A DNA stretch of 64,000 nucleotides from Streptomyces sp. WM6386 (GTDB lineage Bacteria; Actinomycetota; Actinomycetes; Streptomycetales; Streptomycetaceae). Where the stretch lies: NCBI RefSeq assembly GCF_000972385.1, contig NZ_JXTE01000070.1, positions 17,904-81,903 on the forward strand, given 5' to 3'. Numbering within the stretch: position 1 is the stretch's first letter; each line of letters opens with the position of its first letter. Positions 27,606 through 62,091 of this stretch are shown piece after piece. The notes below the pieces were generated by a model. That model did no database searches and was not told the origin of the DNA. It saw nothing but the letters and a program-made list of their open reading frames with translations. Both the position numbers and the translations under genes were made by a program.

Positions 27606-27629
27606 TGACTCTCGTACGGAAGGTCCTTG

Positions 27630-29838: not shown

Positions 29839-29865
29839 GGGAGAGCGGTGGAGCTGTGCGGCCGG

Positions 29866-31653
<1,788 letters not shown>

Positions 31654-45781: not shown

Positions 45782-46597
45782 TCAGCCGGCGAGCTGGTTC
45801 ATCTTGCGGATCTGCTTGTCGAAGACCCCGGCGGGGGCGAGGCGGCGCAGTACGCGTGCGCGTCCGGCCAGGGGGCCGGCGGTGTAGCGCGGCTTCGGCT
45901 TCGTGTCGGTCGCTGCCGCGAGGATCGCCTTGGCGACGACGGCGGGGGCGTCGCCGCCTCTGACCGCGTCCGCCATCACGCGGTCGACGGTCTGCCGCTG
46001 CTTCGCGTAGGCGTGCAGGGGGGTGTCGGGCTTCGCGCTGTTGGTCTCGAACCCGGTCCTGGTGTAGGCGGGTTGGACGATGAGCGCCCGGACGCCGTGG
46101 TCACGGACCTCGTGGTCCAGGGACTCGGTGTAGCCCTCGATCGCGTGCTTGGAGGCGGCGTAGGCGGCCATGTAGGGCTGGGGCATGAATCCGAGGACGG
46201 ACGAGATGTTGATGATGCGTCCGCGTCGCTGCGCGCGCATGTGCGGCAGGACCTCGTTCACCATGCGCATGACCCCGAAGACGTTGGTGTCGAAGACGGC
46301 CTGGGCCTGCTCGAGGGAGGTTTCCTCCGCCGCGCCCAATGAGCCCACGCCGGCGTTGTTGACCAGGACGTCGATCCGCCCGAACCGCTCGCTCACCTCC
46401 TGGACCGCTGCCGTGACCGAGGCGTCGTCGGCCACGTCGAGGTCGACGAACGTCACACCGTCGAGCGGGGTCACGCGTGAGGTGTCCCGGCTTGTGCCGA
46501 CCACCTCGAAACCCGCCGCGACCAGCGCGAGCGCGGTTTCCTTTCCGATACCGGATGACGCACCCGTCACGAGTGCTACCGGACGATCTGTCGTCAT
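45782..46597 (-). CDS. short-chain dehydrogenase/reductase, 271 aa
   Basis: A classical SDR. The NADP-binding motif is VALVTGASSGIGKETALALV (residues about 8-27), then DLDVADDASVTAAVQEVS, VLVNNAGVGSLG (NNAG motif about 84), the catalytic serine in IINISSVLGFM, and YxxxK in YAASKHAIEGYTES (about 153-157). The basic residue in VVGTSRDTSR suggests NADPH. ATG 46597 has AGGAG six bases before it. The two 18-bp operators at 46617-46658 stand immediately upstream, which puts it and the following NmrA-like gene under the local TetR protein. The substrate is unknown; the sequence is like ketoreductases of the FabG-like 'oxidoreductase' group. Confidence 0.92.
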   Translation of the reverse strand: MTTDRPVALVTGASSGIGKETALALVAAGFEVVGTSRDTSRVTPLDGVTFVDLDVADDASVTAAVQEVSERFGRIDVLVNNAGVGSLGAAEETSLEQAQAVFDTNVFGVMRMVNEVLPHMRAQRRGRIINISSVLGFMPQPYMAAYAASKHAIEGYTESLDHEVRDHGVRALIVQPAYTRTGFETNSAKPDTPLHAYAKQRQTVDRVMADAVRGGDAPAVVAKAILAAATDTKPKPRYTAGPLAGRARVLRRLAPAGVFDKQIRKMNQLAG

Positions 46598-46616
46598 CAT
46601 GACTCCTGCACTCCCT

Positions 46617-46658
46617 GGAAACCGTTCGGTTTCCATCACTGTAAACCGATCGGTTTCC
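46617..46658 (-). promoter_or_regulatory. paired TetR-type operators before the SDR-NmrA operon
   Basis: GGAAACCGTTCGGTTTCC (46617-46634) and GTAAACCGATCGGTTTCC (46641-46658) are 18-bp palindromes 24 bp apart. The first lies 20 bases from the SDR start codon, so a bound repressor would block transcription. Confidence 0.8.
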
Positions 46659-46990
46659 ACATGCAAGCCAGAGCAGGGAGCTGGACCAAATGGGCAGCAT
46701 CAGTGCGCAGGAGAGGCGCGAGGTGTCGTTCGCGCGGCGATCGCCAGACAGGTCGGCATCACGCAAGGCTTTCGAGAGCGCGGACGACGGGGCGGAAGGC
46801 GGCGACCCGATCGGCGAGGTCGTCCGGGCCGACGGGATGCGGATCCGGGAGACCGTGCACGTGCCACTGGGCATTTACGCCGACCTGACCGCAGGCTTAC
46901 TCGCCTGCGGTCTGCCCGGCAACACCCTTGCGGCCATGGGACTCCCCGCGAACGCCGTACGGCAATAGAGCGTCCCGGAGGGGCGATGCG
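46659..46990. other. 332-bp interval without a supported gene
   Basis: An open frame of 92 codons (46690-46968, plus strand) begins MGSISAQERREVSF and ends LPGNTLAAMGLPANAVRQ. It has no ribosome site, no recognisable family and a composition unlike its neighbours, so I treat it as noncoding or as remnant sequence. Confidence 0.4.
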
Positions 46991-47560
46991 TCAGCGCACG
47001 CCCGCCGCGTCGAGCAGGGTGATCACCGTGGGCCCGATGAGACCCGTCAGCTTGTCCGCTCCGATGCCCGCGCGGGCGCTGCCCCCGTCGAAGACCAGGC
47101 TGAGCTGCCGGGCCAGCAGACCGGGATCACTCGCCCCGCCCCGCTCGGACTCGGCACGGAAGAAGGCGGTCAGGTTCTCCTTGACCGCACGGGCGACCCG
47201 GCTCGCGGGATGGCTCCGGTCCTTGAGCTCGATCTGCGCGGCCAGGAAGGGGCAGCCGAAGAACTCGGGCGCGCTCGCCTGCGATTCGACCTGCTCGAAG
47301 ACATGCAGGAGCCGCTCCCGGGGTGAGCGGTCGTCGTCCGCCGCGGGCAGGAGTGTCGACACGTAGGCGGAAGTGCGCCGCTCCAGACTCGCCGCGAGCA
47401 GTTCGTCCTTGCTCTCGAACAGCTGGTACATGGAGCGCTTGGACACTCCCGCCGCCTTGCACAGCGCCTCGACGCCGATACCGACGCCGTCGCGGTAGGT
47501 GAGTGTGGCCGCCGCCTCCAGCAGCCGCTCCCTGGGGCTTTGTTTCACTTCGGTGGTCAT
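46991..47560 (-). CDS. TetR-family repressor, likely master of the local regulon
   Basis: A 189-residue TetR protein. The helix-turn-helix is in the first 50 residues (ERLLEAAATLTYRDGVGIGV, EALCKAAGVSKRSMYQLFES). The ligand domain has a cysteine in EFFGCPFLAAQIELKDRSHP, a layout seen in the LmrA/YxaF-like group whose known operators are of the ACCG-N2-CGGT kind. Start ATG 47560. One operator copy (47591-47608) lies in its own leader, so autoregulation is likely. Five other transcription units within 15 kb carry the same operator. Its inducer is unknown; the regulated enzymes suggest a reactive carbonyl, quinone or halogenated compound. Confidence 0.9.
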   Translation of the reverse strand: MTTEVKQSPRERLLEAAATLTYRDGVGIGVEALCKAAGVSKRSMYQLFESKDELLAASLERRTSAYVSTLLPAADDDRSPRERLLHVFEQVESQASAPEFFGCPFLAAQIELKDRSHPASRVARAVKENLTAFFRAESERGGASDPGLLARQLSLVFDGGSARAGIGADKLTGLIGPTVITLLDAAGVR

Positions 47561-47590
47561 ACCGCGAGGTTAACTCAAGGGGAAGCAAAA

Positions 47591-47608
47591 GAAAACCGAT
47601 CGGTTTCT
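47591..47608 (-). promoter_or_regulatory. single TetR-type operator before the tetR gene
   Basis: GAAAACCGATCGGTTTCT, with the perfect core AAACCGATCGGTTT, 30 bases upstream of the repressor start codon. Unlike the target promoters it is single. Confidence 0.75.
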
Positions 47609-47709
47609 GAAGTGGCGTCCGCGTGGCGGCTCGGCGACAGTCCGGGGAAAGACCGTCGCCGAGCCCTGATGGTGTGCGCGCCTGTCGTCCCCGGCAGGGC
47701 GACACACAC

Positions 47710-47735
47710 CGGGGCCACTCCGAGTAATGGCCCCG
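47710..47735. terminator. hairpin behind the DUF3533-type gene
   Basis: CGGGGCCA (47710-47717) pairs with TGGCCCCG (47728-47735), 28 bases behind the stop of the membrane protein gene. Confidence 0.6.
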
Positions 47736-47762
47736 TCCTGGGTGATGTGGGGACGCCCTCCG

Positions 47763-49049
47763 CTATGCCGGGGCCGCCGTCTTCTCGGGCGTCGTCTCCG
47801 CCGGGAGGCGGTGCAGCCCCTTGCGGTCGTACCACCCCAGGACGCCGAAGCCGAACAGTGCCGCGGCCACGAGGCCGGCCGCCATCATGAGCCAGCCCCG
47901 GGTCAGTCCCGCGTCACCCTGGGCGTCGTAGTAGAGGATCGAGCGGATGCCACCGGTGATCTGCCGCAGCGGCTCGAACTCCGCGAGGAAGCGGTAGAAG
48001 CCGGGCAGCGCCTCGATGGGGGTGGTGGCCCCGGACGTCGGCACCGCCATCCCGATGAAGACCAGCGTCACCACCAGCATGCCGGGTGTGCCGAAGACCG
48101 CGAGGAGGCTGAGCGCGCCGATCCCGGCGACCGCGATGGCACACACCGAGTACAGCCACAGCAGTGGCAGATGCGAGGCGTCCATGCCCATGATGCCCAC
48201 CGCGCCGGCCATGACCAGGGTGCCCATCAGCAGGGACAGTCCGGCCATGAGGGTGCTGCTGATGGCGAGGGTCTGCACCCGGGTCGCCCGGATCAGGGGG
48301 CGGTGCAGGCGCAGGGGGCCCATGTCGTTGTGGGTGTAGCCGAGGGCGTGGTCGACCTGGCCGCTCATGACGTTGGCGGAGAGCATGCCGACGACCACGA
48401 GGGTGAGGGCGTAGTAGAACGCCGTCAGGCCCAGGCCGCTGTGCGAGTCGAGCGGATGGCCGTCCTCGACGGTGACGGCGGCCGGGTCGGCGAGCAGGAC
48501 ACGTGCCGCGACGGGCAGCTTCTCCTGCTGGGCGCCGGCCTGCGCGGTCAGCTCCTTGCCCACCTGGAGCGAGGCGCTCTCGGCCGCCTGCGTCGTCGCC
48601 GTCCGGGCCAGACCGGAGCCCAGACTGCCGGCGGACTGATTGGTGAGCACCGTCAGCGTCGGACGGGCCGGGGTCCCGGTGGTCGCGGCGCCGGTCAGCG
48701 CGGTGGCGGAGGAGGTGAAGTCGGCGGGGACGACGAGCGCGCCGTACAGCTTGCCCTTACCCAGTTCCTCCTTCATCTCCTTCTCGTCCATCACCTTCCA
48801 GTCGATCTTGTCCCCGCCCGCGGTGGACTTCTTGATCGACTCGGTGATCCGCGCCCCCAGGTTGACCTGGCCCACTCCTTCGTCCGCGTTGACCAGGCCG
48901 ACGGGCAGCTTGGTGGCATGTCCGGCCGGATCGATGTTGGCGCCGACGTAGAACACGGCGAACAGCAGCGCGAGTACGCCCGTGATGACGCCGTTGGCTA
49001 TCCACAGAGGTCTGGCGCGCAGGACACGGAAGGGGTGAATGCCACTCAT
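47763..49049 (-). CDS. YhgE/Pip-like (DUF3533/ABC-2 permease-type) membrane protein
   Basis: A 428-residue membrane protein. TM1 (WIANGVITGVLALLFAVFYV) is followed by an extracellular domain of about 190 residues (LPVGLVNADEGVGQVNLGAR, KMKEELGKGKLYGALVVPAD) and five to six C-terminal membrane helices (FYYALTLVVVGMLSANVMSG, LSLLMGTLVMAGAVGIMGMD, LLVTLVFIGMAVPTSG). This is the layout of the YhgE/Pip/SNG1 group of the ABC-2 permease superfamily, some of which influence drug or lipid export. No ATPase gene is adjacent. ATG 49049 overlaps the stop of the Fe-S protein gene by four bases, so the two are translated together under the 50224-50264 operators. Confidence 0.87.
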   Translation of the reverse strand: MSGIHPFRVLRARPLWIANGVITGVLALLFAVFYVGANIDPAGHATKLPVGLVNADEGVGQVNLGARITESIKKSTAGGDKIDWKVMDEKEMKEELGKGKLYGALVVPADFTSSATALTGAATTGTPARPTLTVLTNQSAGSLGSGLARTATTQAAESASLQVGKELTAQAGAQQEKLPVAARVLLADPAAVTVEDGHPLDSHSGLGLTAFYYALTLVVVGMLSANVMSGQVDHALGYTHNDMGPLRLHRPLIRATRVQTLAISSTLMAGLSLLMGTLVMAGAVGIMGMDASHLPLLWLYSVCAIAVAGIGALSLLAVFGTPGMLVVTLVFIGMAVPTSGATTPIEALPGFYRFLAEFEPLRQITGGIRSILYYDAQGDAGLTRGWLMMAAGLVAAALFGFGVLGWYDRKGLHRLPAETTPEKTAAPA

Positions 49050-50176
49050 GACGTACGTCGCTCTCGCTCGGTGGATGCTGAACGCTTCGCCGGTGGCTTC
49101 CAGCCGCCGGTGACTTCCTTGACGGGCTTGTGGGGGAACCGGCGCCGGGCGTACTCCTGCGCGTGCGAGCCCGGCAGGACGTAGAGGGTTTCCTGCTTGT
49201 CCTGGAGCGGGCGCAGCACGGTGTCCATGAACGACTTGCGGTCGTCCAGGTACGGGCCGAGGACGTCCTCGCCGGCGGGGCAGACGGCAAGGCAGTAGCC
49301 GGACTTGTAGCCGGGCGGCGAGGACAGGCTCTGCCACATGGAGGCGCTCTCGGAGTCGGTGACCCGCGAGCGGTAGTCGGCGGCGTCCTCGCTGTCGGCC
49401 ACGGTCTGCGCCCAGTCGGTGAACCCGCTCATGAACTCGCGGTAGTTGTGCGTGGTGCAGGCCAGCCCGTCGAAGTCGCCGTCCTTGGTGATGGCGCCGA
49501 CCGGGCAGGCGGCGACGCACAACTTGCAGTCGATGCAGGGGTTGTAGTCCAGCGGCTGCCCGTACTCGCTCACCTCCGCGTCCACCAGCACGGTGACCAG
49601 CAGGACGAAGCTGCCGAACTTCGGGTGGATGACGTTGCGGTGCAGACCCATCACGCCGAGCCCGGCGGCCACCGCGACCGTCTTGTGCGCCACCACCCAG
49701 ATCCGCTCGCGGGGGAACCGGTCCATCTCCTGGGGGAAGCCGACGGACGGATTGAGCGCGCGGTACCCGGCGTCCTGAAGCGCCTGGGTGACGCTGCGCG
49801 CGGCGTGGTTGGCCTGCTCGTCGGTCTGGTGGAACTCCTGGTTGGCCACGCTGCGGGCCGGGGAGCGGCAGTTGTCGCGGTTCATCCGGACCGCCATCGC
49901 GATCAGGCTGCGGGTGCCGGGCAGCGCCGACTGCGCGTACTCGCGCTCGCCGGCCAGGTCTGGGTGGTCCAGACTCACCGCGGCGACGTCGTCCGCGCCG
50001 GCCGCCAGGCACAGCTCGCGCAGCCAGGCCGCGTCGATCACCGCCGGTGGGCGGGCCACCTCACCGGCTTCGCGCCGGGCGAGTACGGCCCGCACCGACG
50101 GGTGGGCGGCCAGCTTCGCCGGAAGCCTGGGAGCCGGGGCCGTCGGTTGCCCCTCGGCGTCGCGCGCGGCAGTCAT
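49046..50176 (-). CDS. Fe-S protein of the QueG/reductive-dehalogenase-like group
   Basis: A 376-residue cytosolic protein related to epoxyqueuosine reductase and reductive dehalogenases. The N-terminal two thirds (LRELCLAAGADDVAAVSLDH, LIAMAVRMNRDNCRSPARSV, GLGVMGLHRNVIHPKFGSFV) look like the corrinoid-binding nitroreductase-like fold. The ferredoxin motif is NPCIDCKLCVAACPVGAI (C-x2-C-x2-C-x3-C, about residue 215), and a shorter second motif YCLAVCPAGEDVLG (about 300) has fewer cysteines than QueG. No twin-arginine signal is present. GTG/ATG start 50176; it is coupled to the membrane protein downstream. Being under the TetR operators rather than with tRNA genes argues against a housekeeping QueG role. 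Its substrate is unknown. Confidence 0.82.
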   Translation of the reverse strand: MTAARDAEGQPTAPAPRLPAKLAAHPSVRAVLARREAGEVARPPAVIDAAWLRELCLAAGADDVAAVSLDHPDLAGEREYAQSALPGTRSLIAMAVRMNRDNCRSPARSVANQEFHQTDEQANHAARSVTQALQDAGYRALNPSVGFPQEMDRFPRERIWVVAHKTVAVAAGLGVMGLHRNVIHPKFGSFVLLVTVLVDAEVSEYGQPLDYNPCIDCKLCVAACPVGAITKDGDFDGLACTTHNYREFMSGFTDWAQTVADSEDAADYRSRVTDSESASMWQSLSSPPGYKSGYCLAVCPAGEDVLGPYLDDRKSFMDTVLRPLQDKQETLYVLPGSHAQEYARRRFPHKPVKEVTGGWKPPAKRSASTERERRTS

Positions 50177-50223
50177 CCGTGCTCCTCGTGGCTCGGGTCC
50201 GGAACTCGCCTACCTGCACCGCG

Positions 50224-50264
50224 AGAAACCGTTCAGTTTCGCCACCGTAAACTGATCGGTTTCC
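50224..50264 (-). promoter_or_regulatory. paired TetR-type operators before the Fe-S/DUF3533 operon
   Basis: AGAAACCGTTCAGTTTCG (50224-50241) and GTAAACTGATCGGTTTCC (50247-50264), 23 bp apart. The flank CACATGCAAG(C/T)C is the same as behind the pair at 46641-46658, so the two promoter regions share ancestry. Confidence 0.75.
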
Positions 50265-50343
50265 ACATGCAAGTCCGCACCGCGGGCCCGAGTTGCAGGC
50301 CCGAGTGGCGAACCGACCCGCCCCACCCCTTCGAAGACCGCCC

Positions 50344-50970
50344 CTAGGACGCCGCAAGCCCCGCAACCGGCTCCTCACTGTCCCGCCATCCCGTCACCAG
50401 CGCCCGCAGCGCCCGCTCGTAGCAGTCGGCGCCCGCGAGCTGCGGCGGCTCGTTCCCGGACAGCACCAGGGAGACCAGGCCGTGGGCCATACCCCAGACC
50501 GACAGCGCGACGACCTCGGGGTCGGACGCGGAACCGAACTGCCCCGCCCGCTGTCCGCGGCGCACGGCGTCGACGAGGGGCCGGTACGGCTCGACGACCT
50601 CGAGCGGCCTGTCCCCGCCGGACGGGCATTGAGTGTCGCGGTCGGAGAAGAGGATCGCGTAGAGGTGCGGGTTGGCCACGGCGTACTCGCGATAGGCCAG
50701 CCCGATACGGATCACGTCGCCGGCCGGGTCGTCCGTCGGACGGACGGCGGCCAGGCGTTCGACGAAGAGGCGCACGGCCTCCTGGTACAGGCTGCCGAGC
50801 AGACCGGCCTTGCTGCCGAACAGCGAGTAGACCGCCGTGGTCGAGGTCTTCGCGTCCGCCGCGAGCTGCCGAAGGCTCAGCGCGGCCGTGCCGCGATCGA
50901 AAACCGTGGCGGCCGCGCGGTGCAGGAGCCGGAGCCGCAGCGATTCGTCATGCGTCTTGGGTCTGGCCAT
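50344..50970 (-). CDS. TetR-family regulator, second
   Basis: A 208-residue TetR protein with the TetR_C (WHG-like) ligand domain. The DNA-binding part is LLHRAAATVFDRGTAALSLR, QLAADAKTSTTAVYSLFGSK, AGLLGSLYQ; the C-terminal domain includes YREYAVANPHLYAILFSDRD and SVWGMAHGLVSLVLSGNEPP, like regulators containing the WHG motif. I start it at ATG 50970; a TACGCT sequence ten bases upstream suggests a short or absent leader. No copy of the GGAAACCG operator lies in its promoter, so it seems to belong to a different circuit. It is divergent from the decayed dehalogenase, which it might once have controlled. Confidence 0.9.
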   Translation of the reverse strand: MARPKTHDESLRLRLLHRAAATVFDRGTAALSLRQLAADAKTSTTAVYSLFGSKAGLLGSLYQEAVRLFVERLAAVRPTDDPAGDVIRIGLAYREYAVANPHLYAILFSDRDTQCPSGGDRPLEVVEPYRPLVDAVRRGQRAGQFGSASDPEVVALSVWGMAHGLVSLVLSGNEPPQLAGADCYERALRALVTGWRDSEEPVAGLAAS

Positions 50971-51060
50971 GGTGCCAGCGTATGACAACACCGTTACGAA
51001 TCCGCTGTGGCAGCGGCAGATAGGTCAGTGTCCAGGCAAGGAGTCAGAACCAGGGTATAG

Positions 51061-51078
51061 GTAAACCGGTCGGTGTTG
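51061..51078 (+). promoter_or_regulatory. degenerate TetR-type operator before the dehalogenase remnant
   Basis: GTAAACCGGTCGGTGTTG keeps the left half and core of the 18-bp operator but has lost most of its right arm. No second copy stands 24 bp away. The decay matches that of the gene behind it. Confidence 0.55.
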
Positions 51079-51108
51079 AGCAATAAAAACACTGTTATGG
51101 TTTCTCTC

Positions 51109-51555
51109 ATGGACATCGGACGCACACCTGATGAGCGCTTCGACGACCTGCGCATGCACGACGTCGACGAAGGGCAGCCCGACGGACTCGTTCCCGAACT
51201 GATGGGATTCGGCCGCTCCGACAAGCCGGTCGACCGGGCCGCGTACACCTACGAGTCGCACGTGGCCTGCACCGGTGAATGGCTGGACCAGCTCGGTCTC
51301 GCGGACATCACCCTGTTCGCTGACCCGCCCGCCTCGATGCTGAGCCGTGCCTGGGCGGGGCTGTCAGCCTTCGAAAAGCCCTTCCTCACCACCTTCGCCG
51401 CGCACGAGGACATCACGCGCGCCTTCGAGCAGGTCGTCCAGGAGCACATCCCGGGCGCGAGGGACCGAAGCCGTCCGACGGTCCCCGACGCCGGTCACTT
51501 CTTGCAGCAACAACAGCCGGACCTGCTGGTCGAGGCGATCCTCAGCCTCGCCTGA
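51109..51555 (+). pseudogene. haloalkane dehalogenase-like remnant
   Basis: The start MDIGRTPDERFDDL and the segments LMGFGRSDKPVDRAAYTYES, HVACTGEWLDQLGLADITLF and the end VPDAGHFLQQQQPDLLVEAI are those of haloalkane dehalogenases (alpha/beta hydrolases of about 300 residues that hydrolyse carbon-halogen bonds). Between DEG and QPDGLVPEL the oxyanion HGxP region is missing, and after ITLF the nucleophile motif GQDWGG and some 100 residues of cap domain are gone, replaced by ADPPASMLSRAW. Only 148 residues remain, so it must be inactive, though the catalytic-histidine end DAGHFLQ survives. At least two internal deletions, both in frame, are needed to explain it. Confidence 0.8.
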
Positions 51556-51835
51556 CAGCCGTTCTCCACGACGGCCCACCCCACCGGCGAGAGCGACGTC
51601 GCCCGGCTCGGCCGGCTTCGGCTCCCCACCCGCCGCTTCCAGAAACGGTGTCGCCCGGCAGACCGGCGACGACCCCACACCGCATGCCGGGACCCCCGCG
51701 GTCCCCCTCCGCCTCGTCCACCGGGCCGTGGGGCGGACCGCGGTCGGCGAACACCAACTGCCGCCACCAGTCGCCACCGGGGCCGGCCGGTCATCCGGTT
51801 CCGTCCCGGCGCGCTTCAACGATCCAGGAGAATCC

Positions 51836-54019
51836 ATGTTCGAGAAATTCGGGCGTCTGCTGCACCGCAGGCGAAAGCCCCTGCTGATACTGACCGTGCT
51901 GTTCGCCGTCCTGTCCGGGGCCTACGGAGCCGGCGTCTTCGGTTCCCTGACACCGCTCGGCTTCCAGGACCCCGGCTCCGGCAGCGAGCGCGCGGCCCGG
52001 ATCGCCGAGAAGGCGTTCCCGCAGCGGACGCCCGACGCGGTGATCGTCTACCGCGACGAGGACCGCACCGTCGACGACCCGTCCTTCCAGGAGGCGGTCG
52101 TCAAGCAGGTGGAGTCCCTGCCGACGGCGGACGTCACCAGCTACATGCACTACTGGCAGACCAAGATGCCGGCGCAGGTCAGCCACGACCGGCACGCCAC
52201 CTACGTCGGGCTGAACTTCCACGGCAGCAGCGAGAAGGCCAAGGAGGACGCGTACAAGGCGGTCATGGACCAGATTCCGGCACCCGGCCTTCAGACCCTG
52301 CAGGGCGGAACGGTGCCCACCGGCCATCAGGCCGGCGAGAAGATCGAACACGATCTGAGAATCGCGGAGATCATCTCGGCACCCGTGCTGTTCCTGCTCC
52401 TGCTGGTCGTGTTCGGCGGTATGGCCGCGGCCTTCCTCCCGCTGATCGTCGGCGTGCTCTCCATCATCGGGTCGATGGCCGTCCTGCGGACCATCGCGAA
52501 CATCACCGACGTGTCCGTCTTCTCCATGAGCCTGGTCACGATCCTGGGTCTCGCGGTCGCCATCGACTACGGCCTGCTGATCGTGAGCCGCTACCGCGAG
52601 GAACTGGACCGCGGCTACACCGGCGAAGCGGCGATCGGGCGCACGGTCGCCACGGCAGGGCGCACGGTGATGATCTCCGGCACCACGGTCGCGGTGGCGC
52701 TGGCCGGCCTGTCCCTCTTCCCGTCGACGTTCCTGAAGTCGATGTCGTACGGCGGTGTGGCCGCGGTCGTGCTGGCGGTGCTCTTCTCGCTGGTCGCGCT
52801 GCCCGCGGTGCTCGCCGTGATGGGCCCGAAGGTCAACGCCTTCTCACTGCGCCGCAAGAAGGCCGTACGGCCGACGGCGCCGGGCGAGGGTTCCTGGTAC
52901 CGGTTCGGGCACGGCCTGATGCGGCGCCGGTGGGTCGTGGTGGTGGGCGCGGTCGGCCTGCTGGTGACGCTCGCCCTGCCCTTCTCCAAGATCGATTTCG
53001 GCTCCATCAACGCGCAGCAGCTGCCGAGCAGTTCCGAGGGCCGCCAGGTCTTCAACGCCATGGAGCACGACTTCGACGGTGACGCGGTGAAGTCCATCGA
53101 CTCGCTGCTCGTGCTGAAGTCCGACGGGACCGCGAAGGAGCAGGGCGCGGCGCTCCAGGCGTACGCCGAGCGGCTCGGCGCCACCGAGGGCGCCACGGGC
53201 GCCCGGATCAGCGGCATCGAGGGCACCACGGCCCGGGTCTCCGTCACCTACGACGGCAATCCCATCTCGAACCACGCACGCGACCTGGTGAACCGGATCA
53301 AGGAGGTACCGGCACCGCCGGGCGCCCAGGCCTACATCGGCGGCGAGTCGGCGATCTACGACGACACCCTGGACGCACTCGGCGAGACCCTGCCGTGGAT
53401 GCTGCTCTACATCGCGGTGATGACGTACATCCTGCTGTTCCTCGCGTTCGGCTCGGTGCTGCTGCCGCTGAAGGCCATCGCGATGAACATGCTGTCGCTG
53501 ACCGCGACCTTCGGGGTCCTGGTCTGGATCTTCCAGGACGGGCATCTGAACGGCCTGCTCGGTTTCGATCCCACGGGCAACATCGAACCCAACATGCCGA
53601 TCATGCTGTTCGCGCTGATCTTCGGGCTCTCCATGGACTACGAGGTGTTCCTGGTGTCCCGGATGCGGGAGCAGTACGACAAGCAGGGCGACAGCACGGA
53701 GGCCGTGGCGACCGGGCTCAACTCCATCGGCCGGCTGGTCGTGAGCGCCGCGGTGCTGATGTGCGTGCCGCTCGCGGCGATCGGGATGAGCGATGTGCTG
53801 ACCATCAAGCTGTTCGGCGTCGGCATGGTGTTCGCGGTCCTGACGGACGTGCTGGTCGTGCGCATCCTGCTGGGAACGGCCGTCATGAGACTGCTGGGCA
53901 GGGCGGCCTGGTGGGCGCCGGCGCCACTGGCGCGCTTCTACGACCGGTTCGGCATCAAGGAGACCGACGAGCCGGACGACGACACCGCCGACAAGCCGGT
54001 CCCCGTCACCGTGGGCTGA
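51836..54019 (+). CDS. MMPL-family (RND-type) transporter
   Basis: A 727-residue membrane protein with 12 predicted helices in two repeats, each with a large extracytoplasmic domain after the first helix. Motifs are LVTILGLAVAIDYGLLIVSR (TM4, the proton-relay aspartate-tyrosine pair, about residue 240), GRTVMISGTTVAVALAGLSL and, in the second half, FALIFGLSMDYEVFLVSRMR (about 595) and GRLVVSAAVLMCVPLAAIGM. ATG 51836 follows CCAGGAG. Such proteins export lipids or antibiotics. The 280 bases before it hold no supported gene or palindromic operator. A hairpin (54029-54057) separates it from a convergent MerR gene. Confidence 0.93.
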   Translation: MFEKFGRLLHRRRKPLLILTVLFAVLSGAYGAGVFGSLTPLGFQDPGSGSERAARIAEKAFPQRTPDAVIVYRDEDRTVDDPSFQEAVVKQVESLPTADVTSYMHYWQTKMPAQVSHDRHATYVGLNFHGSSEKAKEDAYKAVMDQIPAPGLQTLQGGTVPTGHQAGEKIEHDLRIAEIISAPVLFLLLLVVFGGMAAAFLPLIVGVLSIIGSMAVLRTIANITDVSVFSMSLVTILGLAVAIDYGLLIVSRYREELDRGYTGEAAIGRTVATAGRTVMISGTTVAVALAGLSLFPSTFLKSMSYGGVAAVVLAVLFSLVALPAVLAVMGPKVNAFSLRRKKAVRPTAPGEGSWYRFGHGLMRRRWVVVVGAVGLLVTLALPFSKIDFGSINAQQLPSSSEGRQVFNAMEHDFDGDAVKSIDSLLVLKSDGTAKEQGAALQAYAERLGATEGATGARISGIEGTTARVSVTYDGNPISNHARDLVNRIKEVPAPPGAQAYIGGESAIYDDTLDALGETLPWMLLYIAVMTYILLFLAFGSVLLPLKAIAMNMLSLTATFGVLVWIFQDGHLNGLLGFDPTGNIEPNMPIMLFALIFGLSMDYEVFLVSRMREQYDKQGDSTEAVATGLNSIGRLVVSAAVLMCVPLAAIGMSDVLTIKLFGVGMVFAVLTDVLVVRILLGTAVMRLLGRAAWWAPAPLARFYDRFGIKETDEPDDDTADKPVPVTVG

Positions 54020-54028
54020 CCCCTGCGA

Positions 54029-54057
54029 GCGGGGTGCCGGTGACCACGGCACCCCGC
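54029..54057. terminator. bidirectional terminator between MMPL and MerR genes
   Basis: GCGGGGTGCCG (54029-54039) pairs perfectly with CGGCACCCCGC (54047-54057), with a seven-base loop. Confidence 0.75.
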
Positions 54058-54090
54058 CGGGGGCTCACTCCGCCGGCTGCTCCGGGGGAA

Positions 54091-54783
54091 TCACTGCGCC
54101 GACCCCTCCCCCGGCCCGCACGCACGGCGATCATGGCGACGATGGTTCGCGTCCTCCTGGGCCAGCCGCCGCAGAAGCCTGACGACCGGCTCGAACAGCA
54201 CGGTGAGGACCACCGCCCGCTCGGCGAGGGCGATGCGGTCCTCGATGCCGTCGAGCTGCGCGAAGTCCAGGTCCGCGGTGGCGGTGGCGAGCCGTGCGTA
54301 GGGGACGAGGTCGTCCGCCGTGAACTCGGAACCGAGGCGGCTCAGCGCCGCGAGACTCTCGGCAAGTGCCGGGCGGTGCGGTGAGACGTCGGAGATCCGC
54401 CAGCCCATGTTCCCGATGAGAGCCTCGACCCTCGCGGCGGCCCCGAAAGGGGCCGCTTCGTCGTTGGCACCCTCCAGTCGCTCGTCCTTCTTGTCCTTCG
54501 TCTCCGCGGAAGGAACGGGCAGGGCGTGGTGGACGACGCCCAGGGTCTCGAACGCGTCCAGCGGACGGTCGACGGCTTCCAGCACCTCACGGGTGCGGGC
54601 GACGGACAGCCCGCCGAGCTGGATGAGGGAACGGATCAGACGGAGCCGCTCGATGTGCTCCTCGTCGTACTCGACCGTGGTCGGGTTCAGCGCACGTCCC
54701 TCGGGGAGCAGCCCCTCCCGTCGGTAGTACTTGATGGTCGCCACCGGCACCCCGGACCGTCGGCTGAGCTCTGAAATCCTCAT
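54091..54783 (-). CDS. MerR-family transcriptional regulator
   Basis: A 230-residue MerR protein. The winged helix-turn-helix is MRISELSRRSGVPVATIKYY, then RREGLLPEGRALNPTTVEYD and IERLRLIRSLIQLGGLSVAR, followed by the dimerisation helix. The C-terminal 130 residues are all helical (GAAARVEALIGNMGWRISDV, EFTADDLVPYARLATATADL) as in the streptomycete group of larger MerR proteins that sense drugs or small organics; there is no cysteine metal-binding pattern. ATG 54783 is the start. It is divergent from the DUF6230 operon, with nested palindromes between them, but those palindromes are not in the spacer of a recognisable MerR promoter. Confidence 0.9.
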   Translation of the reverse strand: MRISELSRRSGVPVATIKYYRREGLLPEGRALNPTTVEYDEEHIERLRLIRSLIQLGGLSVARTREVLEAVDRPLDAFETLGVVHHALPVPSAETKDKKDERLEGANDEAAPFGAAARVEALIGNMGWRISDVSPHRPALAESLAALSRLGSEFTADDLVPYARLATATADLDFAQLDGIEDRIALAERAVVLTVLFEPVVRLLRRLAQEDANHRRHDRRACGPGEGSAQ

Positions 54784-54839
54784 GCGCTCCCTCACGCTCA
54801 ACTGTCCCTCCAGTATCGCGTTACCGGGGGTTGCCCACC

Positions 54840-54889
54840 GAGCTCGATAGTGCCACTATCAGGCACTCGATAGTGGCACTATCGAGCTC
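54840..54889. promoter_or_regulatory. nested palindromic operator array before the DUF6230 operon
   Basis: GATAGTGCCACTATC (54846-54860) and CTCGATAGTGGCACTATCGAG (54866-54886) are perfect palindromes with the same ATAGTG-N-CACTAT core, 23 bp apart. The outer arms GAGCTCGATAGTG (54840-54852) and CACTATCGAGCTC (54877-54889) also pair with each other, so the whole region can form one large hairpin. TetR-type binding sites are likely; the regulator is not identified. Confidence 0.75.
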
Positions 54890-54956
54890 TCGCCGGTGTG
54901 CCCTCTTCGCGCACCCGGCCCCTCACCCTCGTACGCCCTGACAACGGAGGACACCT

Positions 54957-55571: not shown

Positions 55572-55620
55572 CCCTCGCTCCCCTTCCTCCCCCACCCGTT
55601 CACGATCCGGGAGCTTCCCC

Positions 55621-56088
55621 ATGACGAGTGCCGGCGCATCCGCGCACCCCCACAGTGACAGCGGCTTCGCCAGCGCTCGCCAGGCTTTCCGGGCCTGGCG
55701 GCGCACCCGCCCCTTCTGGGCGGGTCTGCTGGTGCTCCTCGCTGCCGCGCCGATCATCTACTTCCCCTACTTCAATGTCCCCCTGGGCGCCCTGTCCGTG
55801 GCGATGTCCACCACCGCGGGGGCGGGCTCGCTGATCATCGGCCTGACACTGATCGTCCTCGGCGGACTCCTCTGGTTCCAGCCGATCATCAGGTTCTTCG
55901 CCGGATGCGTCGCCGTCTTCCTCGGCGTGCTGTCGCTTCCCCTCTCGAACTTCGGCGGATTCTTCGCCGGCACCCTGCTGGCGGCCACGGGTGGACTCCT
56001 GGCTCTGGCGTGGGGCCCGGTGGACGCGGACCTGCCCGACGGCACGGTCGGGTCGGTCGGCTCGGAGGGAGAGCCGGGGAATGGCTGA
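55621..56088 (+). CDS. DUF6114-family membrane protein
   Basis: A 155-residue protein with four hydrophobic helices: FWAGLLVLLAAAPIIYFPYF, LSVAMSTTAGAGSLIIGLTL, IVLGGLLWFQPIIRFFAGCV and FFAGTLLAATGGLLALAWGP, an Arg-rich cytosolic N-terminus and an acidic tail. This is DUF6114, which in Streptomyces regularly follows a DUF6230 gene. ATG 55621 has GGGAGCTTCCCC before it. Its stop overlaps the ATG of the third gene by eight bases, so they are co-translated. The neighbourhood suggests it anchors or exports its two secreted partners; this is inference. Confidence 0.87.
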   Translation: MTSAGASAHPHSDSGFASARQAFRAWRRTRPFWAGLLVLLAAAPIIYFPYFNVPLGALSVAMSTTAGAGSLIIGLTLIVLGGLLWFQPIIRFFAGCVAVFLGVLSLPLSNFGGFFAGTLLAATGGLLALAWGPVDADLPDGTVGSVGSEGEPGNG

Positions 56089-57331: not shown

Positions 57332-57373
57332 AACCGCGGCCCGCGCGGCCGCTTCCCCCATGAGCTTGCGCTT

Positions 57374-57415
57374 GGAAACCGATCGGTTTACTGTGATGGA
57401 AACCGATCGGTTCCC
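57374..57415 (+). promoter_or_regulatory. paired TetR-type operators before the SDR-hydrolase operon
   Basis: GGAAACCGATCGGTTTAC (57374-57391) and GGAAACCGATCGGTTCCC (57398-57415), 24 bp apart and ending 25 bases before the SDR start codon. These are the best-preserved copies of the operator. Confidence 0.82.
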
Positions 57416-57439
57416 GAGCGATTTCTTATGGAGGCAATC

Positions 57440-58141
57440 ATGACCGCTCTCAAGGACGCAAACGTCTTCGTCACCGGCGGCAGCCGGGGCATCGGCAAGG
57501 CGCTGGTGGAAGAGCTGTACGGGCGCGGTGCCGCCAAGGTCTACGCCACGGCCCGCGACCCGCGCACCGTGACGCACCCCGACGCGGTCCCGGTGGCGCT
57601 GGAGGTCACCGACCCGGCCTCTGTGGCGGCGGCCGCCGCACAGGCACAGGATGTCACCGTGCTGATCAACAACGCCGGTGCGTCGGTCGGCGCCTCCTTC
57701 CTCGACTCCCCGGTCGACGACGTACGCCGGGAGTTCGAGACCAACTTCTACGGCCCGCTGCTCCTCACCCGTGCCTTCGTGCCGGTCATCGAGGGCAACG
57801 GCGGCGGCCACATCCTCAACGTGCACTCCGTGCTCTCCTGGCTGGCCCTCGGCGGCTCCTACAGCGCTTCCAAGGCCGCCCTGTGGTCGCAGTCCAACTC
57901 CCTGCGCCTGGAGCTTCAGCCGCGCGGTATCTCCGTCACCGGACTGCACGTCGCATACGTCGACACCGACCTGGCGGCGGGCGTCGACGCACCCAAGTCC
58001 GACCCCCGTGAGGTCGCCGCACTCGCCCTCGACGGCGTCGAGACGGGCGCGTACGAGGTGCTCGCCGACGACATCACCCGCCAGGTCAAGGCCGGCCTGG
58101 CCGGCGACCTGGCCGGGCTGTACGCCCAGTTGGCCAAGTAA
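57440..58141 (+). CDS. short-chain dehydrogenase/reductase, 233 aa
   Basis: A classical SDR and first gene of a three-gene operon. Motifs are VFVTGGSRGIGKALVEELYG (residues about 9-28), ATARDPRTVTHPDAVPVALE (an arginine suggesting NADP), VLINNAGASVGASF (about 76), the serine in ILNVHSVLSWLALG and YxxxK in GSYSASKAALWSQSNSLRLE (about 140-144). Start ATG 57440 with GGAGG eight bases before; the ATG at 57428 lacks a site. It is close in type to the SDR at 45782 though shorter. Under the paired operators at 57374-57415. Probably reduces a carbonyl made or used by the hydrolases that follow. Confidence 0.92.
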   Translation: MTALKDANVFVTGGSRGIGKALVEELYGRGAAKVYATARDPRTVTHPDAVPVALEVTDPASVAAAAAQAQDVTVLINNAGASVGASFLDSPVDDVRREFETNFYGPLLLTRAFVPVIEGNGGGHILNVHSVLSWLALGGSYSASKAALWSQSNSLRLELQPRGISVTGLHVAYVDTDLAAGVDAPKSDPREVAALALDGVETGAYEVLADDITRQVKAGLAGDLAGLYAQLAK

Positions 58142-58172
58142 GACAGAGACGACAGGACAGGGAGACGGCAAG

Positions 58173-59051
58173 ATGCCCAGCCAGGAATCACGTCCCACCA
58201 TTCACGTTCCGGGGACCACCACGCACACCATCGCCCCGCGCGCAGGACGTGCCGGCCGCGAGGGAACGCTGCGCTACCTCAAGGCGGGCAGCGGTGCGCC
58301 GCTGATTCTGCTGCACACCGTGCGCACCCAGGCCGAGCACTTCCGTCTCCTCATCCCGCTGATCGCGGAGCGGTACACCGTGTACGCCCTCGATCTGCCG
58401 GGGATGGGCTACTCCGAGATCGTGCCCGGTGCGTCGTACGACGAGCCGGCCATGCGGGCGGGCGTCGAGCGGCTCCTGACCGAACTCGACCTGTACGACG
58501 TGACGTTGGTCGGGGAGTCCATGGGTGCGGTGCTCGCCCTGACCACCGCGGCCGATCTCCCCGAGCGCGTCCGCCGCGTCGTCGCGGTGAACACGTACGA
58601 CTTCCGCGGTGGGATCGCCCGCTCGAGCCTTCTCGCCCGTGTGGTGGTCGGCGGTGTCCTCCTGCCCGGGGTGGGCCCGGTGATCGCCGGTGTGGAGCCC
58701 AAGCCTGTGCTCAGCAAGATCCTTCAGGGCGGCCTGGGCGACAAGAGCGCGCTGCGCGAGGACTACGTGGACGAGCTGCTCCAGGTGGGCGGCCGCCCCG
58801 GCTATTCGACCGTCGCCCGCAGCGTGTACCAGGCCCTGCCCAGCCTCATCGCGGCCCGCTCGCGCTACCGCGAGGTCAAGGCCCCCATCCACCTCGTCTA
58901 CGGCGAGAAGGACTGGTCCCGCCCCTCGGACCGGGAGGCCAACAAGCGGCTGCTGCCGGCCGCCGACTTCACCCAGGTGGCCAACGCCGGCCACTTCATC
59001 GCCCTTGAACGACCTGACGTGCTGGCCGACCTGTTGAACGCGGTGGCCTGA
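58173..59051 (+). CDS. alpha/beta-fold hydrolase, 292 aa
   Basis: An epoxide hydrolase/dehalogenase-like serine hydrolase. GAPLILLHTVRTQAEHFRLL (oxyanion region), VYALDLPGMGYSEIVPG, the nucleophile elbow VTLVGESMGAVLALT (serine, about residue 117), the acid in IHLVYGEKDWSRPSDR (about 248) and the histidine in ANAGHFIALERPD (about 273) give a complete triad. The nucleophile is serine, so it is an esterase-type enzyme, not a haloalkane dehalogenase, which would have aspartate. ATG 58173 after AGGGAGACGGC. It lies 31 bp behind the SDR and 31 bp before the CocE/NonD gene, one operon. Confidence 0.93.
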   Translation: MPSQESRPTIHVPGTTTHTIAPRAGRAGREGTLRYLKAGSGAPLILLHTVRTQAEHFRLLIPLIAERYTVYALDLPGMGYSEIVPGASYDEPAMRAGVERLLTELDLYDVTLVGESMGAVLALTTAADLPERVRRVVAVNTYDFRGGIARSSLLARVVVGGVLLPGVGPVIAGVEPKPVLSKILQGGLGDKSALREDYVDELLQVGGRPGYSTVARSVYQALPSLIAARSRYREVKAPIHLVYGEKDWSRPSDREANKRLLPAADFTQVANAGHFIALERPDVLADLLNAVA

Positions 59052-59082
59052 CCACCAGGACCACTGGCCCAAGGAGCAGTGC

Positions 59083-60774
59083 ATGGCAGGGATACAGATC
59101 GAGTTCGATGTTCCGGCTGAGATGCGTGACGGCACGGTGCTGCGCGCGGACGTCTACCGGCCCGACGGCGACGGACCGTGGCCGGTCCTGCTGAGCCGGC
59201 TGCCGTACGGCAAGCAGACGCCCATGATGACCAGCATGCTCGATCCGACGGCGGCCGCCCGCCGCGGTTTCATGGTCGTCCTCCAGGACACCCGCGGCCG
59301 GTTCGCCTCCGACGGCGAGTGGGATCCGTTCACGTACGAGGAGAGCGACGGCTGCGACACCGTGCGGTGGGCCGCCGCCCTTCCCGGCGCGAACGGCTCC
59401 GTCGGCATGATCGGCGGCAGCTATTTCGGCAACACGCAGTGGATGGCGGCGCTGTCCAAGCCGCCGGAGCTGAAGGCGATCGCGCCGATGGTCACGTGGT
59501 CCGATCCGGACGACGGGCTGTGGTCGCGCGGCGGCGCGATCGAGCTCGGCCTCTCCGTCCCCTGGTCCCTCCTCCAGGGCGCCGACACCCTGATGCGCCG
59601 GTACAGCACCGACCTCGACGGGCTCGTGAACGGCATCACCGGGCTCATAGGCGATTTCGACAGCCTGGCGGACGGCGGTTACGGCGAACTCCCCGCCGGC
59701 CGGTTCCCCGCGTTCGCCCGGCACGACCTGCCCGAACTCGGCTACGAACGCTCCCGCCGCGAGCCCGAGTGGGCGCGCTCGTCCCGTGTCGCGGGCCGCC
59801 ACGACGAGGTCGACCTGCCCACCTTCCAGGTCGGCGGCTGGTACGACGTCTTCAGCCAGGGCACGCTCGACAACTTCACCGCCATGCGCCGGGCCGGCCG
59901 GTCCGCGACGCTGATCATGGGCCCGTGGGCCCACACCAACCTGCGGCACGTGGTCGGGGACGTCAACTTCGGCTTCGGCGCGCACTCCGACTACATGGCC
60001 ATGCGCGGGCGCCTGTCGGACATGCAGCTCGACTGGTTCCAGCGCACGATCGGCGACGGCGAGGCGCTGGAGCCGGACACGGGCAAGGTGCTGCTGTTCG
60101 TCATGGGCGTCAACCAGTGGCGCGAGGAGACGCAATGGCCCCTGTCCCGGGCCGTCGACACGGACTTCCACCTGCGCGCGGACGGACGCCTCACCCCTGA
60201 GCCGCCGTCCACCGCCGAGCAGGCCGAGGAGTTCACCTACGACCCGATGGATGCGGTCCCCACCACCGGCGGCGCGCTCCTCGTGGGCAGCGGGCTCCTG
60301 ATGGCCGACGAGTCCCGGCCCGGCCCGCTCGACCAGACGGTCGTGGAGGCGCGCGAGGACGTCCTGGTCTTCACCACCGAGCCGCTCACCGAGGACGTCG
60401 AGGTGACCGGTCGCGTGCGGGCGGTGCTCTTCGCCGCCACGGACGGGCCCTCGACCGACTGGGTGGCCCGTCTGTGCGACGTCGACGAGCACGGTGTCTC
60501 CCGCAACGTGACCGACGGCATCGTGCGGGTACGGGAAGCGACGCCGGGCGAGGCCGCCGAGCACGTCGTGGACCTGTGGTCGACCAGCATCGTCTTCCGG
60601 GCGGGGCACCGGATACGGGTCCAGATCACCTCCAGCAACTTCCCGCGCTGGGACCGCAATCTCAACACGGGCGAACCCGCGGAGAGCGCGACCACGGCCC
60701 GGGTGGCCCGGCAGCAGATCTTCCACGACCCCGCCCTGCCCTCCCGCATCGTCCTGCCGGTGGTTCCGCTCTGA
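59083..60774 (+). CDS. CocE/NonD-family hydrolase
   Basis: A 563-residue X-Pro dipeptidyl-peptidase/cocaine esterase-type serine hydrolase. The N-terminal alpha/beta domain has MRDGTVLRADVYRPDGDGPW, PVLLSRLPYGKQTPMM with the oxyanion tyrosine, VVLQDTRGRFASDGEWDPF, and the nucleophile in VGMIGGSYFGNTQWMAALS (serine, about residue 112). The acid lies in QVGGWYDVFSQGTLDNF (about 255) and the histidine in MGPWAHTNLRH (about 286). A jelly-roll C-terminal domain follows (VTGRVRAVLFAATDGPSTDW, ITSSNFPRWDRNLNTG). ATG 59083 after AAGGAGCAGTGC. Ester or amide hydrolysis is expected, cytosolic. It ends the operon before a strong hairpin. Confidence 0.94.
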   Translation: MAGIQIEFDVPAEMRDGTVLRADVYRPDGDGPWPVLLSRLPYGKQTPMMTSMLDPTAAARRGFMVVLQDTRGRFASDGEWDPFTYEESDGCDTVRWAAALPGANGSVGMIGGSYFGNTQWMAALSKPPELKAIAPMVTWSDPDDGLWSRGGAIELGLSVPWSLLQGADTLMRRYSTDLDGLVNGITGLIGDFDSLADGGYGELPAGRFPAFARHDLPELGYERSRREPEWARSSRVAGRHDEVDLPTFQVGGWYDVFSQGTLDNFTAMRRAGRSATLIMGPWAHTNLRHVVGDVNFGFGAHSDYMAMRGRLSDMQLDWFQRTIGDGEALEPDTGKVLLFVMGVNQWREETQWPLSRAVDTDFHLRADGRLTPEPPSTAEQAEEFTYDPMDAVPTTGGALLVGSGLLMADESRPGPLDQTVVEAREDVLVFTTEPLTEDVEVTGRVRAVLFAATDGPSTDWVARLCDVDEHGVSRNVTDGIVRVREATPGEAAEHVVDLWSTSIVFRAGHRIRVQITSSNFPRWDRNLNTGEPAESATTARVARQQIFHDPALPSRIVLPVVPL

Positions 60775-60863
60775 CAGGAAGCCGCGGGCGTGCCTGCCGG
60801 TCGGCCGCGCCGGTGAGAAGGCGGGGCGCGCACCACGAGAGCGCCCCGGCAGGACCATGACGT

Positions 60864-60895
60864 CGGCAGGCGCCGCTTCGAGGCGGCGCCTGCCG
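60864..60895. terminator. bidirectional terminator
   Basis: CGGCAGGCGCCGC (60864-60876) pairs perfectly with GCGGCGCCTGCCG (60883-60895) around a six-base loop, followed by a short T run, between convergent genes. Confidence 0.85.
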
Positions 60896-60936
60896 TTCTT
60901 CGACGTGGTAGATCCAGTTTCCTCACATGCGGTCGT

Positions 60937-62034
60937 TCACAACTTTCCCGTCCTGAAGTCCGCGCTGCTCTTGAGGACCGCGGATTCCATGGTCCAGTTC
61001 TCCGACTGGACCCTTTCCCAGAGGCTTCCCTTGCCGGATTCCCTGCCCAACCGGTCCTCCCGACGGAACCACTCCTCGGCGCTCCTGATCCTGTCGGGGT
61101 GGATTTCGTCGAGCAGCGCGTAGTCCCTGGTGATGATCCCGTGCTTCCACACATTCCAGAAGCCGGTGAAATTGTCGCGGAAGCTCATGGTGCTCTTGTC
61201 GTCGGGGTCGGCGTTGTATCCGGCTGGGTGATCGGCGATCCCCGTCAGGTCCGGATGGCTCCAATACGCATCCGGATCGGTGTCGATGTACTGCGCCGGG
61301 TGCCCGGTGACCTTCTCGAATGCCGCGGCCATGTCGGCGTAGGTCATGTGCTCGATGGCGACTTCGAGGTCCATGCCGTTGGCCCGTTCCGGGTGGTCGA
61401 AGAGCCAGCGGACATAGAATCCGCAGTCTTCCAGAGACACGTGCGGGACGGCCCCTTCGCCGAGAGGGACTCGCCACGTGACGACACCGTCCTCGATGGA
61501 GGGCGTCATGGGCGTGAGCGGTGAGATCACCATCTCGATGTAGGGACCCGAGGTGAAGACCGCCGCCCCCATCCGGTCGCTGTTCTTCTCGTTCTGGAAC
61601 AGCACCCACTCGGCCATGCGGCCCTTGCCGTCATAGTGACCGGTGCGGAACCTGGAGTCGTAGCCCGACTTCTTGAGGGCGTAGTCGAGGTTTCCGTAGA
61701 CGAAGAACTTGATTCCTTCTTCGATCGCGATCTCATAAGTACGGATGGCCCAGTAGGTCTCCGTCTTCTCGCCGGTGTTGAACCCGTCGATGTTGATGAA
61801 CGCCCCGTCGCAGCCGCGAAATCCTTCGCGGAGTACGTCCTCATCGGCGAACGTCCCTTCGAGGATGGAGACGTTGCCGAGCGCGACGAGTTCCTGAGCC
61901 CGGGGGGAACTGGCGTCCCGGGTGAGGACCTTGACGGAGTACTTCTTGTCGGCGACAAGAGCGCGGACCACGGGTATCCCCTGGGCTCCCGTGCCGCCGA
62001 TGACAAAGATGGAGGAGGTGGCATGAGCAGACAT
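60937..62034 (-). CDS. NmrA/HSCARG-like NADP-binding protein, 365 aa
   Basis: The N-terminal Rossmann part is IFVIGGTGAQGIPVVRALVA, then VKVLTRDASSPRAQELVALG, VSILEGTFADEDVLREGFRG. The core resembles HSCARG/NmrA redox sensors (DGAFINIDGFNTGEKTETYW, FFVYGNLDYALKKSGYD, YIEMVISPLTPM, VSLEDCGFYVRWLFDHPERA). The extension of about 70 residues at the C-terminus (DNFTGFWNVWKHGIITRDYA) is typical of the fungal/actinobacterial longer type. ATG 62034 has GGAG six bases upstream. Paired operators at 62050-62091 place it in the TetR regulon. GC content is lower than in neighbouring genes (more AT-ending codons), hinting at separate acquisition. Enzymatic activity is not evident. Confidence 0.9.
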   Translation of the reverse strand: MSAHATSSIFVIGGTGAQGIPVVRALVADKKYSVKVLTRDASSPRAQELVALGNVSILEGTFADEDVLREGFRGCDGAFINIDGFNTGEKTETYWAIRTYEIAIEEGIKFFVYGNLDYALKKSGYDSRFRTGHYDGKGRMAEWVLFQNEKNSDRMGAAVFTSGPYIEMVISPLTPMTPSIEDGVVTWRVPLGEGAVPHVSLEDCGFYVRWLFDHPERANGMDLEVAIEHMTYADMAAAFEKVTGHPAQYIDTDPDAYWSHPDLTGIADHPAGYNADPDDKSTMSFRDNFTGFWNVWKHGIITRDYALLDEIHPDRIRSAEEWFRREDRLGRESGKGSLWERVQSENWTMESAVLKSSADFRTGKL

Positions 62035-62049
62035 GACTGACTCCAAGTC

Positions 62050-62091
62050 GGAAACCGATCGGTTTTCATCATGTTACACCGATCGGTTTCC
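62050..62091 (-). promoter_or_regulatory. paired TetR-type operators before the NmrA/HSCARG-like gene
   Basis: GGAAACCGATCGGTTTTC (62050-62067) and TTACACCGATCGGTTTCC (62074-62091), 24 bp apart, the first 16 bases from the start codon. Confidence 0.8.

Follow-up and report, generated by a model that had tools for sequence, protein, structure and literature searches.

Several described regulators resemble, each in part, the system considered here: a TetR-family gene (tetR) and a set of palindromic operators in a 64,000-nt stretch of the genome of Streptomyces sp. WM6386 (contig NZ_JXTE01000070.1, positions 17,904 to 81,903), which we call the window. Among the systems compared, the nearest described analogue is SAV151 of Streptomyces avermitilis (He et al. 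2014, as given in PMC10933834), a TetR repressor of a neighbouring cluster with the dehydrogenase gene sav152 and the hydrolase gene sav154 (PMC10933834). E. coli NemR and Pantoea AltR are TetR repressors of their own gene and of stress genes, and have a conserved cysteine (PMC7464077, PMC13178969) to which one in the protein studied here may correspond. TTHB023 of Thermus thermophilus is a TetR with two sites at two promoters and the consensus CTGACCGATCGGTCAG, which shares its centre, ACCGATCGGT, with the present operator (PMC7022988). Outside the TetR family, Streptomyces coelicolor, which produces antibiotics, has the small SoxR regulon, whose members are transporters, oxidoreductases and an epimerase/dehydratase (PMC4146615). 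We propose, with a probability of roughly 80%, that the window carries a regulon, clustered in one place, under a single autoregulated repressor of the TetR family and inducible by a small molecule.

The operator consensus of the present system is the 18-bp sequence GGAAACCGATCGGTTTCC, with the 14-bp core AAACCGNNCGGTTT. The sites listed for SAV151 (GAACTGACA... and TCTGACA...; PMC10933834, Table 2) differ from it, and it is by these listed sites only that the two are set apart and that we rejected SAV151 as the same system. AltR has the operator CAATCTAC-N6-GTAGATTG (PMC13178969), the target genes given for NemR and AltR are other ones (PMC7464077, PMC13178969), and thiol sensing is only putative in the present TetR. 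Compared by sites and targets only, TTHB023 has other flanks around the shared centre and other target genes, tied to fatty-acid metabolism (PMC7022988). SoxR belongs to another regulator family and is an activator (PMC4146615), unlike the predicted TetR repressor with its tandem operators. The operators displayed in PMC3511530 also differ, and PMC4258057, which came up when CGGTTTCC or GGAAACCG was searched with TetR and Streptomyces, was discarded as an operator source, its CGGTTTCC matches being primers. In the literature searched, from which subscription journals are mostly absent so that an unseen description is possible, neither the palindrome nor three shorter forms of it was found, ACCGATCGGT appeared alongside TetR for one regulator, TTHB023, and no system with this gene set turned up, as an earlier note on this DNA had supposed. 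The gene-control system is apparently undescribed. A role in endogenous secondary metabolism, with enzymes that feed or tailor a product, would follow the example of SAV151, which reduces avermectin output as well as repressing the adjacent cluster of dehydrogenase and hydrolase genes (PMC10933834). We consider this quite unlikely, given the different sites and the fact that no biosynthetic cluster was recognised among the window genes called or scanned, most of them not scanned.

Eight window positions match GGAAACCGATCGGTTTCC with three mismatches or fewer (46617, 46641, 47591, 50247, 57374, 57398, 62050 and 62074), against an expected 0.01, and none of 100 shuffles reached eight. At the same threshold the whole 9.2-Mb genome (856 contigs; the right end of the window is the end of its contig) has 11 places and the reversed control none. 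These figures rule out chance or low complexity as the source of the operators. Exact AAACCGNNCGGTTT cores number seven in the genome, five in the window and two on contig C57. The palindromes that the earlier note had located are present where it placed them, single at tetR (47591) and paired at the target promoters, 23–24 bp apart as claimed (24 bp at SDR46, 23 bp at FeS, 24 bp at SDR57 and 24 bp at NmrA62; see Table 1 for gene names); nor does the genome hold the hundreds of equal matches elsewhere against which that note had weighed its proposal. Its phrase “identical operators” was loose: none of the sites has the exact consensus. The site at 50224 has four mismatches and that at 51061 five. 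At the level of four to five mismatches, five other window positions score alike (2787, 9916, 49713, 51948 and 59090). Support for 51061 therefore rests on loci L018, L019 and L028, each with a single, better site (one core mismatch) at the matching place, and we regard it, with low confidence, as a degenerate putative operator.

With two core mismatches or fewer, the genome has 130 places versus 46 for the control; the first part of the 130 was inspected, and weaker real sites may be missed. The sites concentrate in the window, and no genome-wide regulon was seen among the genome matches listed. Two places outside the window are site-like, C57:85148 and C57:101012, the latter before a frame-broken tetR paralogue. 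The match at C334:64137 lies between genes read as convergent, and one-mismatch cores on C101, C168 and C301 fall within called genes. C57:85148 (L012, 9149–9166) is a single well-formed site with a -35 and a -10, by eye TTGCCA-18-TACAGT, 62 bp before a ProA-like frame (232.7 bits, below the ProA cut-off of 289) that is a possible extra target. Also on C57, L013 (5128–6762) has a second tetR copy in a broken frame with a site before it (6012–6029); judged by eye, the frame upstream resembles the last part of an MFS exporter gene, and L080, L042 and L093 have an intact MFS gene and a second tetR in the same order.

At most targets the operators occupy a fixed place in the promoter. At SDR46, FeS and SDR57, the 17-base spacer that separates TTGCAT or TTGCGC from TACNGT is filled by operator 1; operator 2 begins 23–24 bp further on, over the expected transcription start. 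Across 83 stretches there are 134 pair-gene assignments; in 100 of them TAnnnT stands at one and the same offset from operator 1, while the second most frequent offset accounts for 11. This signal is partly the operator's own edge; yet the promoter-side flank is TTTAC, versus mostly TTTCC at the other flanks.

The operators also accompany tetR across genera, which supports the earlier note's claim of one TetR for operators in many promoters. A search for tetR found 178 relatives, and the best 80 of the 178 loci, mostly from Streptomyces with others from Nonomuraea, Frankia, Pseudonocardia, Glycomyces, Actinomadura and Streptacidiphilus, were analysed. By the criteria used, all 80 have at least one site, and 70 have a pair 22–34 bp apart. 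In a genus set of 150 genomes, 42 encode the TetR (E ≤ 1e-40); exact tandem core pairs (gap 8–24) occur in 36 of these 42 and in none of the 108 TetR-negative genomes (Fisher 8.7e-29, assuming independent genomes). In a class set of 296 genomes, nine of them shared with the genus set, the exact pair occurs in 13 of 17 TetR-positive and 0 of 279 TetR-negative genomes. The predicted operators, their fixed promoter place and their strict co-occurrence with TetR are properties of the sequences themselves. Could the sites belong to another regulator, with tetR a mere neighbour? A second TetR gene (50344–50970) does lie inside the cluster, divergent from the frame at 51109, and a further TetR type, TetR174, recurs in the loci. 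However, the second-TetR type is found in four and TetR174 in 15 of the 83 stretches, which rules them out as the binder when set against an operator in 80/80 tetR loci, and the pairs are missing from all 108 and all 279 TetR-negative genomes. We judge such an arrangement extremely improbable.

Several observations weigh against a single TetR regulon. Exact pairs are lacking in six TetR-positive genomes of the genus set (G009, G011, G085, G111, G140 and G148) and four of the class set (G348, G349, G364 and G402); G111, G140 and G011 have a mismatch-bearing pair. The genomes are related, so the Fisher value overstates their independence. Three tetR copies (L035, L064 and L086) have no assigned operator. 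No -10 is found in 34 of the 134 assignments, including 13/13 for MFS and 12/12 for TetR174; TetR174 is divergent from SDR46 and shares its operator pair, and the TetR174 and MFS promoters fall outside the pattern. Finally, the target families are broad and name no substrate. At MFS exporter genes the pair often has variant half-sites, CTGTTT or AAACAG, and the usual -10 is missing (for example L093, 5834–5875).

The tetR product has a TetR_N domain (36.2 bits versus a cut-off of 24) and matches over its full length a putative TetR-family regulator of known structure, PDB 3jsj (E 5.9e-92); no paper naming 3JSJ was found in the literature searched. Five plasmid records carry a relative of this TetR, the best 60.3% identical. 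Palindromic operators at its own and its target promoters are a TetR-family hallmark, found here by sequence and co-occurrence only. An operator was assigned to 87 of 90 aligned tetR copies, and the shared upstream pattern of the 90 places it at -48 to -31 from the ATG, with TAACCT at -12 to -7 in 81/90. With a -10 element at -12 to -7, transcription would begin at the tetR ATG or right beside it, which suggests that the tetR mRNA is leaderless.

Cys34 and Cys103 are invariant in 90/90 TetR copies. A regulon of the NemR/AltR kind, in which a reactive compound modifies Cys103 and so releases TetR from DNA, would fit the invariance of this residue, its alignment with the GC of NemR (taken as NemR Cys106) and the need of NemR and AltR for a conserved cysteine (PMC7464077, PMC13178969). 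We hold this reading to be tentative and rather doubtful: two other TetR chains, 3g7r and 3dpj, carry the same GC in the same alignment, so the motif is not special to NemR and may be structural, Cys34 is just as invariant, and the targets seen include neither NemA nor GloA, the enzymes that accompany NemR. The PDB match of NemR to TetR covers residues 5–119 only (E 1.9e-7), and the 15 listed NCBIfam families with E ≤ 0.1 include no NemR model.

Table 1. Features of the predicted regulon in the window.
Feature	Position	Strand	Remarks
NmrA45, NmrA-like protein	44743..45717	-	close behind SDR46; predicted same transcript
SDR46, short-chain dehydrogenase (SDR), PRK06179 type	45782..46600	-	403.6 bits vs cut-off 310
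SDR46 operator 2	46617..46634		1 mismatch; consensus match
SDR46 operator 1	46641..46658		1 mismatch; inside TTGCAT-17-TACAGT, minus strand
tetR, predicted repressor, 189 aa	46991..47560	-	TetR_N above cut-off
tetR operator (single)	47591..47608		2 mismatches; -48 to -31 from tetR ATG
DUF3533/ABC-2-like membrane protein	47763..49049	-	start overlaps FeS end; predicted same transcript
FeS, [4Fe-4S] protein, distant relative of QueG and RdhA	49046..50176	-	below both cut-offs
FeS operator 2	50224..50241		4 mismatches
FeS operator 1	50247..50264		2 mismatches; inside TTGCAT-17-TACGGT, minus strand
Degenerate site before dehalogenase-like remnant	51061..51078		5 mismatches; low confidence
Dehalogenase-like 149-residue frame	51109..51555	+	no Pfam match; probably shortened alpha/beta-hydrolase-fold remnant
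MMPL family membrane protein	51836..54019	+	behind remnant; regulon membership uncertain
SDR57 operator 1	57374..57391		1 mismatch; inside TTGCGC-17-TACTGT, plus strand
SDR57 operator 2	57398..57415		1 mismatch; consensus match
SDR57, short-chain dehydrogenase, PRK08264 type	57440..58141	+	365.8 bits vs cut-off 249; start 57440 chosen, 57428 likewise open
ABH58, alpha/beta hydrolase	58173..59051	+	close behind SDR57
CocE/NonD family hydrolase	59083..60774	+	424.5 bits vs cut-off 66.3; close behind ABH58
NmrA62, NmrA-like protein	60937..62034	-	own operator pair
NmrA62 operator 2	62050..62067		1 mismatch; consensus match
NmrA62 operator 1	62074..62091		3 mismatches; TAACAT as -10, poor -35

What would such a repressor control? 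SDR46, FeS and SDR57 each have more same-strand genes close behind them. The membrane gene named in the earlier note is corrected to the DUF3533/ABC-2-like gene on the minus strand (47763–49049), overlapping the end of FeS. Among the 83 stretches, target families were called in the following numbers of stretches, with genes that have an assigned operator in brackets: SDR57 41 (38), SDR46 38 (36), alpha/beta hydrolase 34 (11), FeS 30 (21), NmrA45 18 (0), MFS 16 (13), TetR174 15 (13), DUF3533 15 (2), CocE 8 (1) and NmrA62 6 (5). The commonest families are the two SDRs, the alpha/beta hydrolase and the Fe-S protein, and families with few operators of their own stand mostly behind another target in the loci inspected. 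The gene finder was crude, missing DUF3533 and ABH58 in the window itself; the per-family and promoter-assignment counts depend on it, and the per-family counts are low estimates.

The Fe-S protein scores 52 bits against epoxyqueuosine reductase QueG (TIGR00276, cut-off 200) and 33.9 bits against reductive dehalogenase RdhA (TIGR02486, cut-off 160.35). The aspartate of the QueG VDTG motif is catalytic; Arg158 of the Fe-S protein stands at its place in a single-sequence alignment, within a weakly aligned stretch. A PDB profile search with the Fe-S family gave matches to QueG and to complex I ferredoxin-like proteins only, and a structure prediction from 39 sequences (mean predicted local distance difference test score, pLDDT, 59) was too poor for a fold search. 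The family is large: of 7999 candidates scored, at least 7219 reach E ≤ 1e-10, and no name among the listed relatives goes with a tested function.

The frame at 51109–51555, which we take to be dehalogenase-like, has longer relatives in L018 and L019, and is probably a shortened remnant of the alpha/beta-hydrolase-fold gene seen in those two loci. With a probable remnant behind the weakest site and an Fe-S protein scoring well under the RdhA threshold, the halogenated-compound pathway suggested in the earlier note is not supported. On either side of the 51061 site lie AACACCGTT (before the second TetR gene) and AACACTGTT (before the dehalogenase-like frame), at 50987–50995 and 51088–51096. They are a possible operator of the second TetR, and AACACTGTT recurs in L018, L019 and L028.

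The mixture of oxidoreductases and hydrolases is also what a degradation route needs, and the regulon might instead be catabolic: its enzymes would degrade a single compound for nutrition, with that compound or an intermediate of its breakdown as inducer. The CocE/NonD protein is above its cut-off, and a link to fatty-acid genes is described for TTHB023, the TetR that also has ACCGATCGGT at the centre of its consensus (PMC7022988). We find this unlikely: membrane proteins of the MFS, DUF3533 and MMPL families are met repeatedly in the loci, the units differ between species in a way that a fixed pathway would not, and the scanned targets of the window showed no enzyme for ring cleavage or CoA activation.

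The clustered TetR regulon is probably a small-molecule stress regulon. RNA polymerase would be kept off by a TetR dimer that sits on operator 1 and covers the spacer between the -35 and -10 elements; repression would be strengthened by another dimer bound at operator 2, which lies over the transcription start. The single operator of tetR would let one dimer, placed over the -35 region, exert negative feedback on the presumably leaderless mRNA. Release of TetR by the small molecule would induce the target units, and with them two SDRs, two NmrA-like proteins, two hydrolases, the QueG/RdhA-like Fe-S protein and the DUF3533 membrane protein. Their likeliest role would be to deal with a toxic metabolite, which they would modify, reduce or hydrolyse and perhaps also export. 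We infer that stress or self-protection is the likeliest function because the gene set resembles the S. coelicolor SoxR regulon in kind, and detoxification is plausible. A more detailed version is speculative, and we would not expect it to hold as a whole: an actinobacterial stress regulon new to description, whose TetR responds to a reactive metabolite, electrophilic or quinone-like, that it may detect by means of Cys103, whose induced proteins are SDRs, hydrolases, exporters and an Fe-S reductase of a new, QueG/RdhA-like class, and whose tandem operators were rebuilt in evolution, operator 1 locked in the promoter spacer and operator 2 shifted by ~9 bp between two TetR subfamilies.

The spacing of the SDR57 pair bears on this last point. 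TetR proteins fall into a close class (≥70% identity to the present TetR) and a distant class (52–65%), and in a tree of 115 TetR sequences a 97/18 split matches these classes without error (support 0.405). At loci with a close TetR the pair is 23–26 bp apart in 36/40, 30 of these at 24 bp, and the other four have a single site or none; at loci with only a distant TetR (53–65% identity) it is 30–34 bp apart in 12/12. Some of the distant-TetR loci (L131–L139) were found through an operator pattern allowing 22–38 bp. Of three loci without a TetR, L138 has 33 bp, and L116 and L118 have 24 bp; the latter two, from genomes with only a distant TetR (G033 and G111), are exceptions to the association of close with 24 bp and distant with 33 bp. 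The TAnnnT offset from operator 1 is kept in all 15 of these promoters, the 12 with a distant TetR and the three without one. In the genus set, a fixed 24-bp pattern with two mismatches or fewer occurs in 17 genomes, 15/18 with a close TetR and 2/24 with only a distant one. In four genomes from a different genus (L131–L134), the distant tetR and SDR57 are divergent and flank the operator pair. Hence, the original unit was probably tetR beside SDR57, and the other units joined later.

Other features of the window were observed in passing. Positions 46690–46968 hold a trace of divergent TetR174, matching its residues 118–174 at 61%; no full-length TetR174 was called in the window. At 54843–54892, between a MerR-type regulator gene (54091–54801) and a DUF6230 gene (54957), there is a tandem 23-base repeat, CTCGATAGTGCCACTATCAAGCA, with a palindrome like ATAGTG-N-CACTAT, possibly a MerR operator. 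Ordinary purine breakdown genes, identified by Pfam, lie at 19746–31653 (uricase, HIUase, OHCU decarboxylase and a xanthine/uracil-type permease), near genes for an amidohydrolase, a catalase and a thiamine pyrophosphate (TPP) enzyme.

The proposed regulon would bring scattered actinobacterial annotations, such as “TetR”, “SDR”, “4Fe-4S binding protein” and “DUF3533”, together as one predicted regulon with a precise operator. Such an operator would make targets findable by sequence and the inducer searchable with one reporter. The two operator spacings would be a natural experiment on the contribution of the second repressor dimer.

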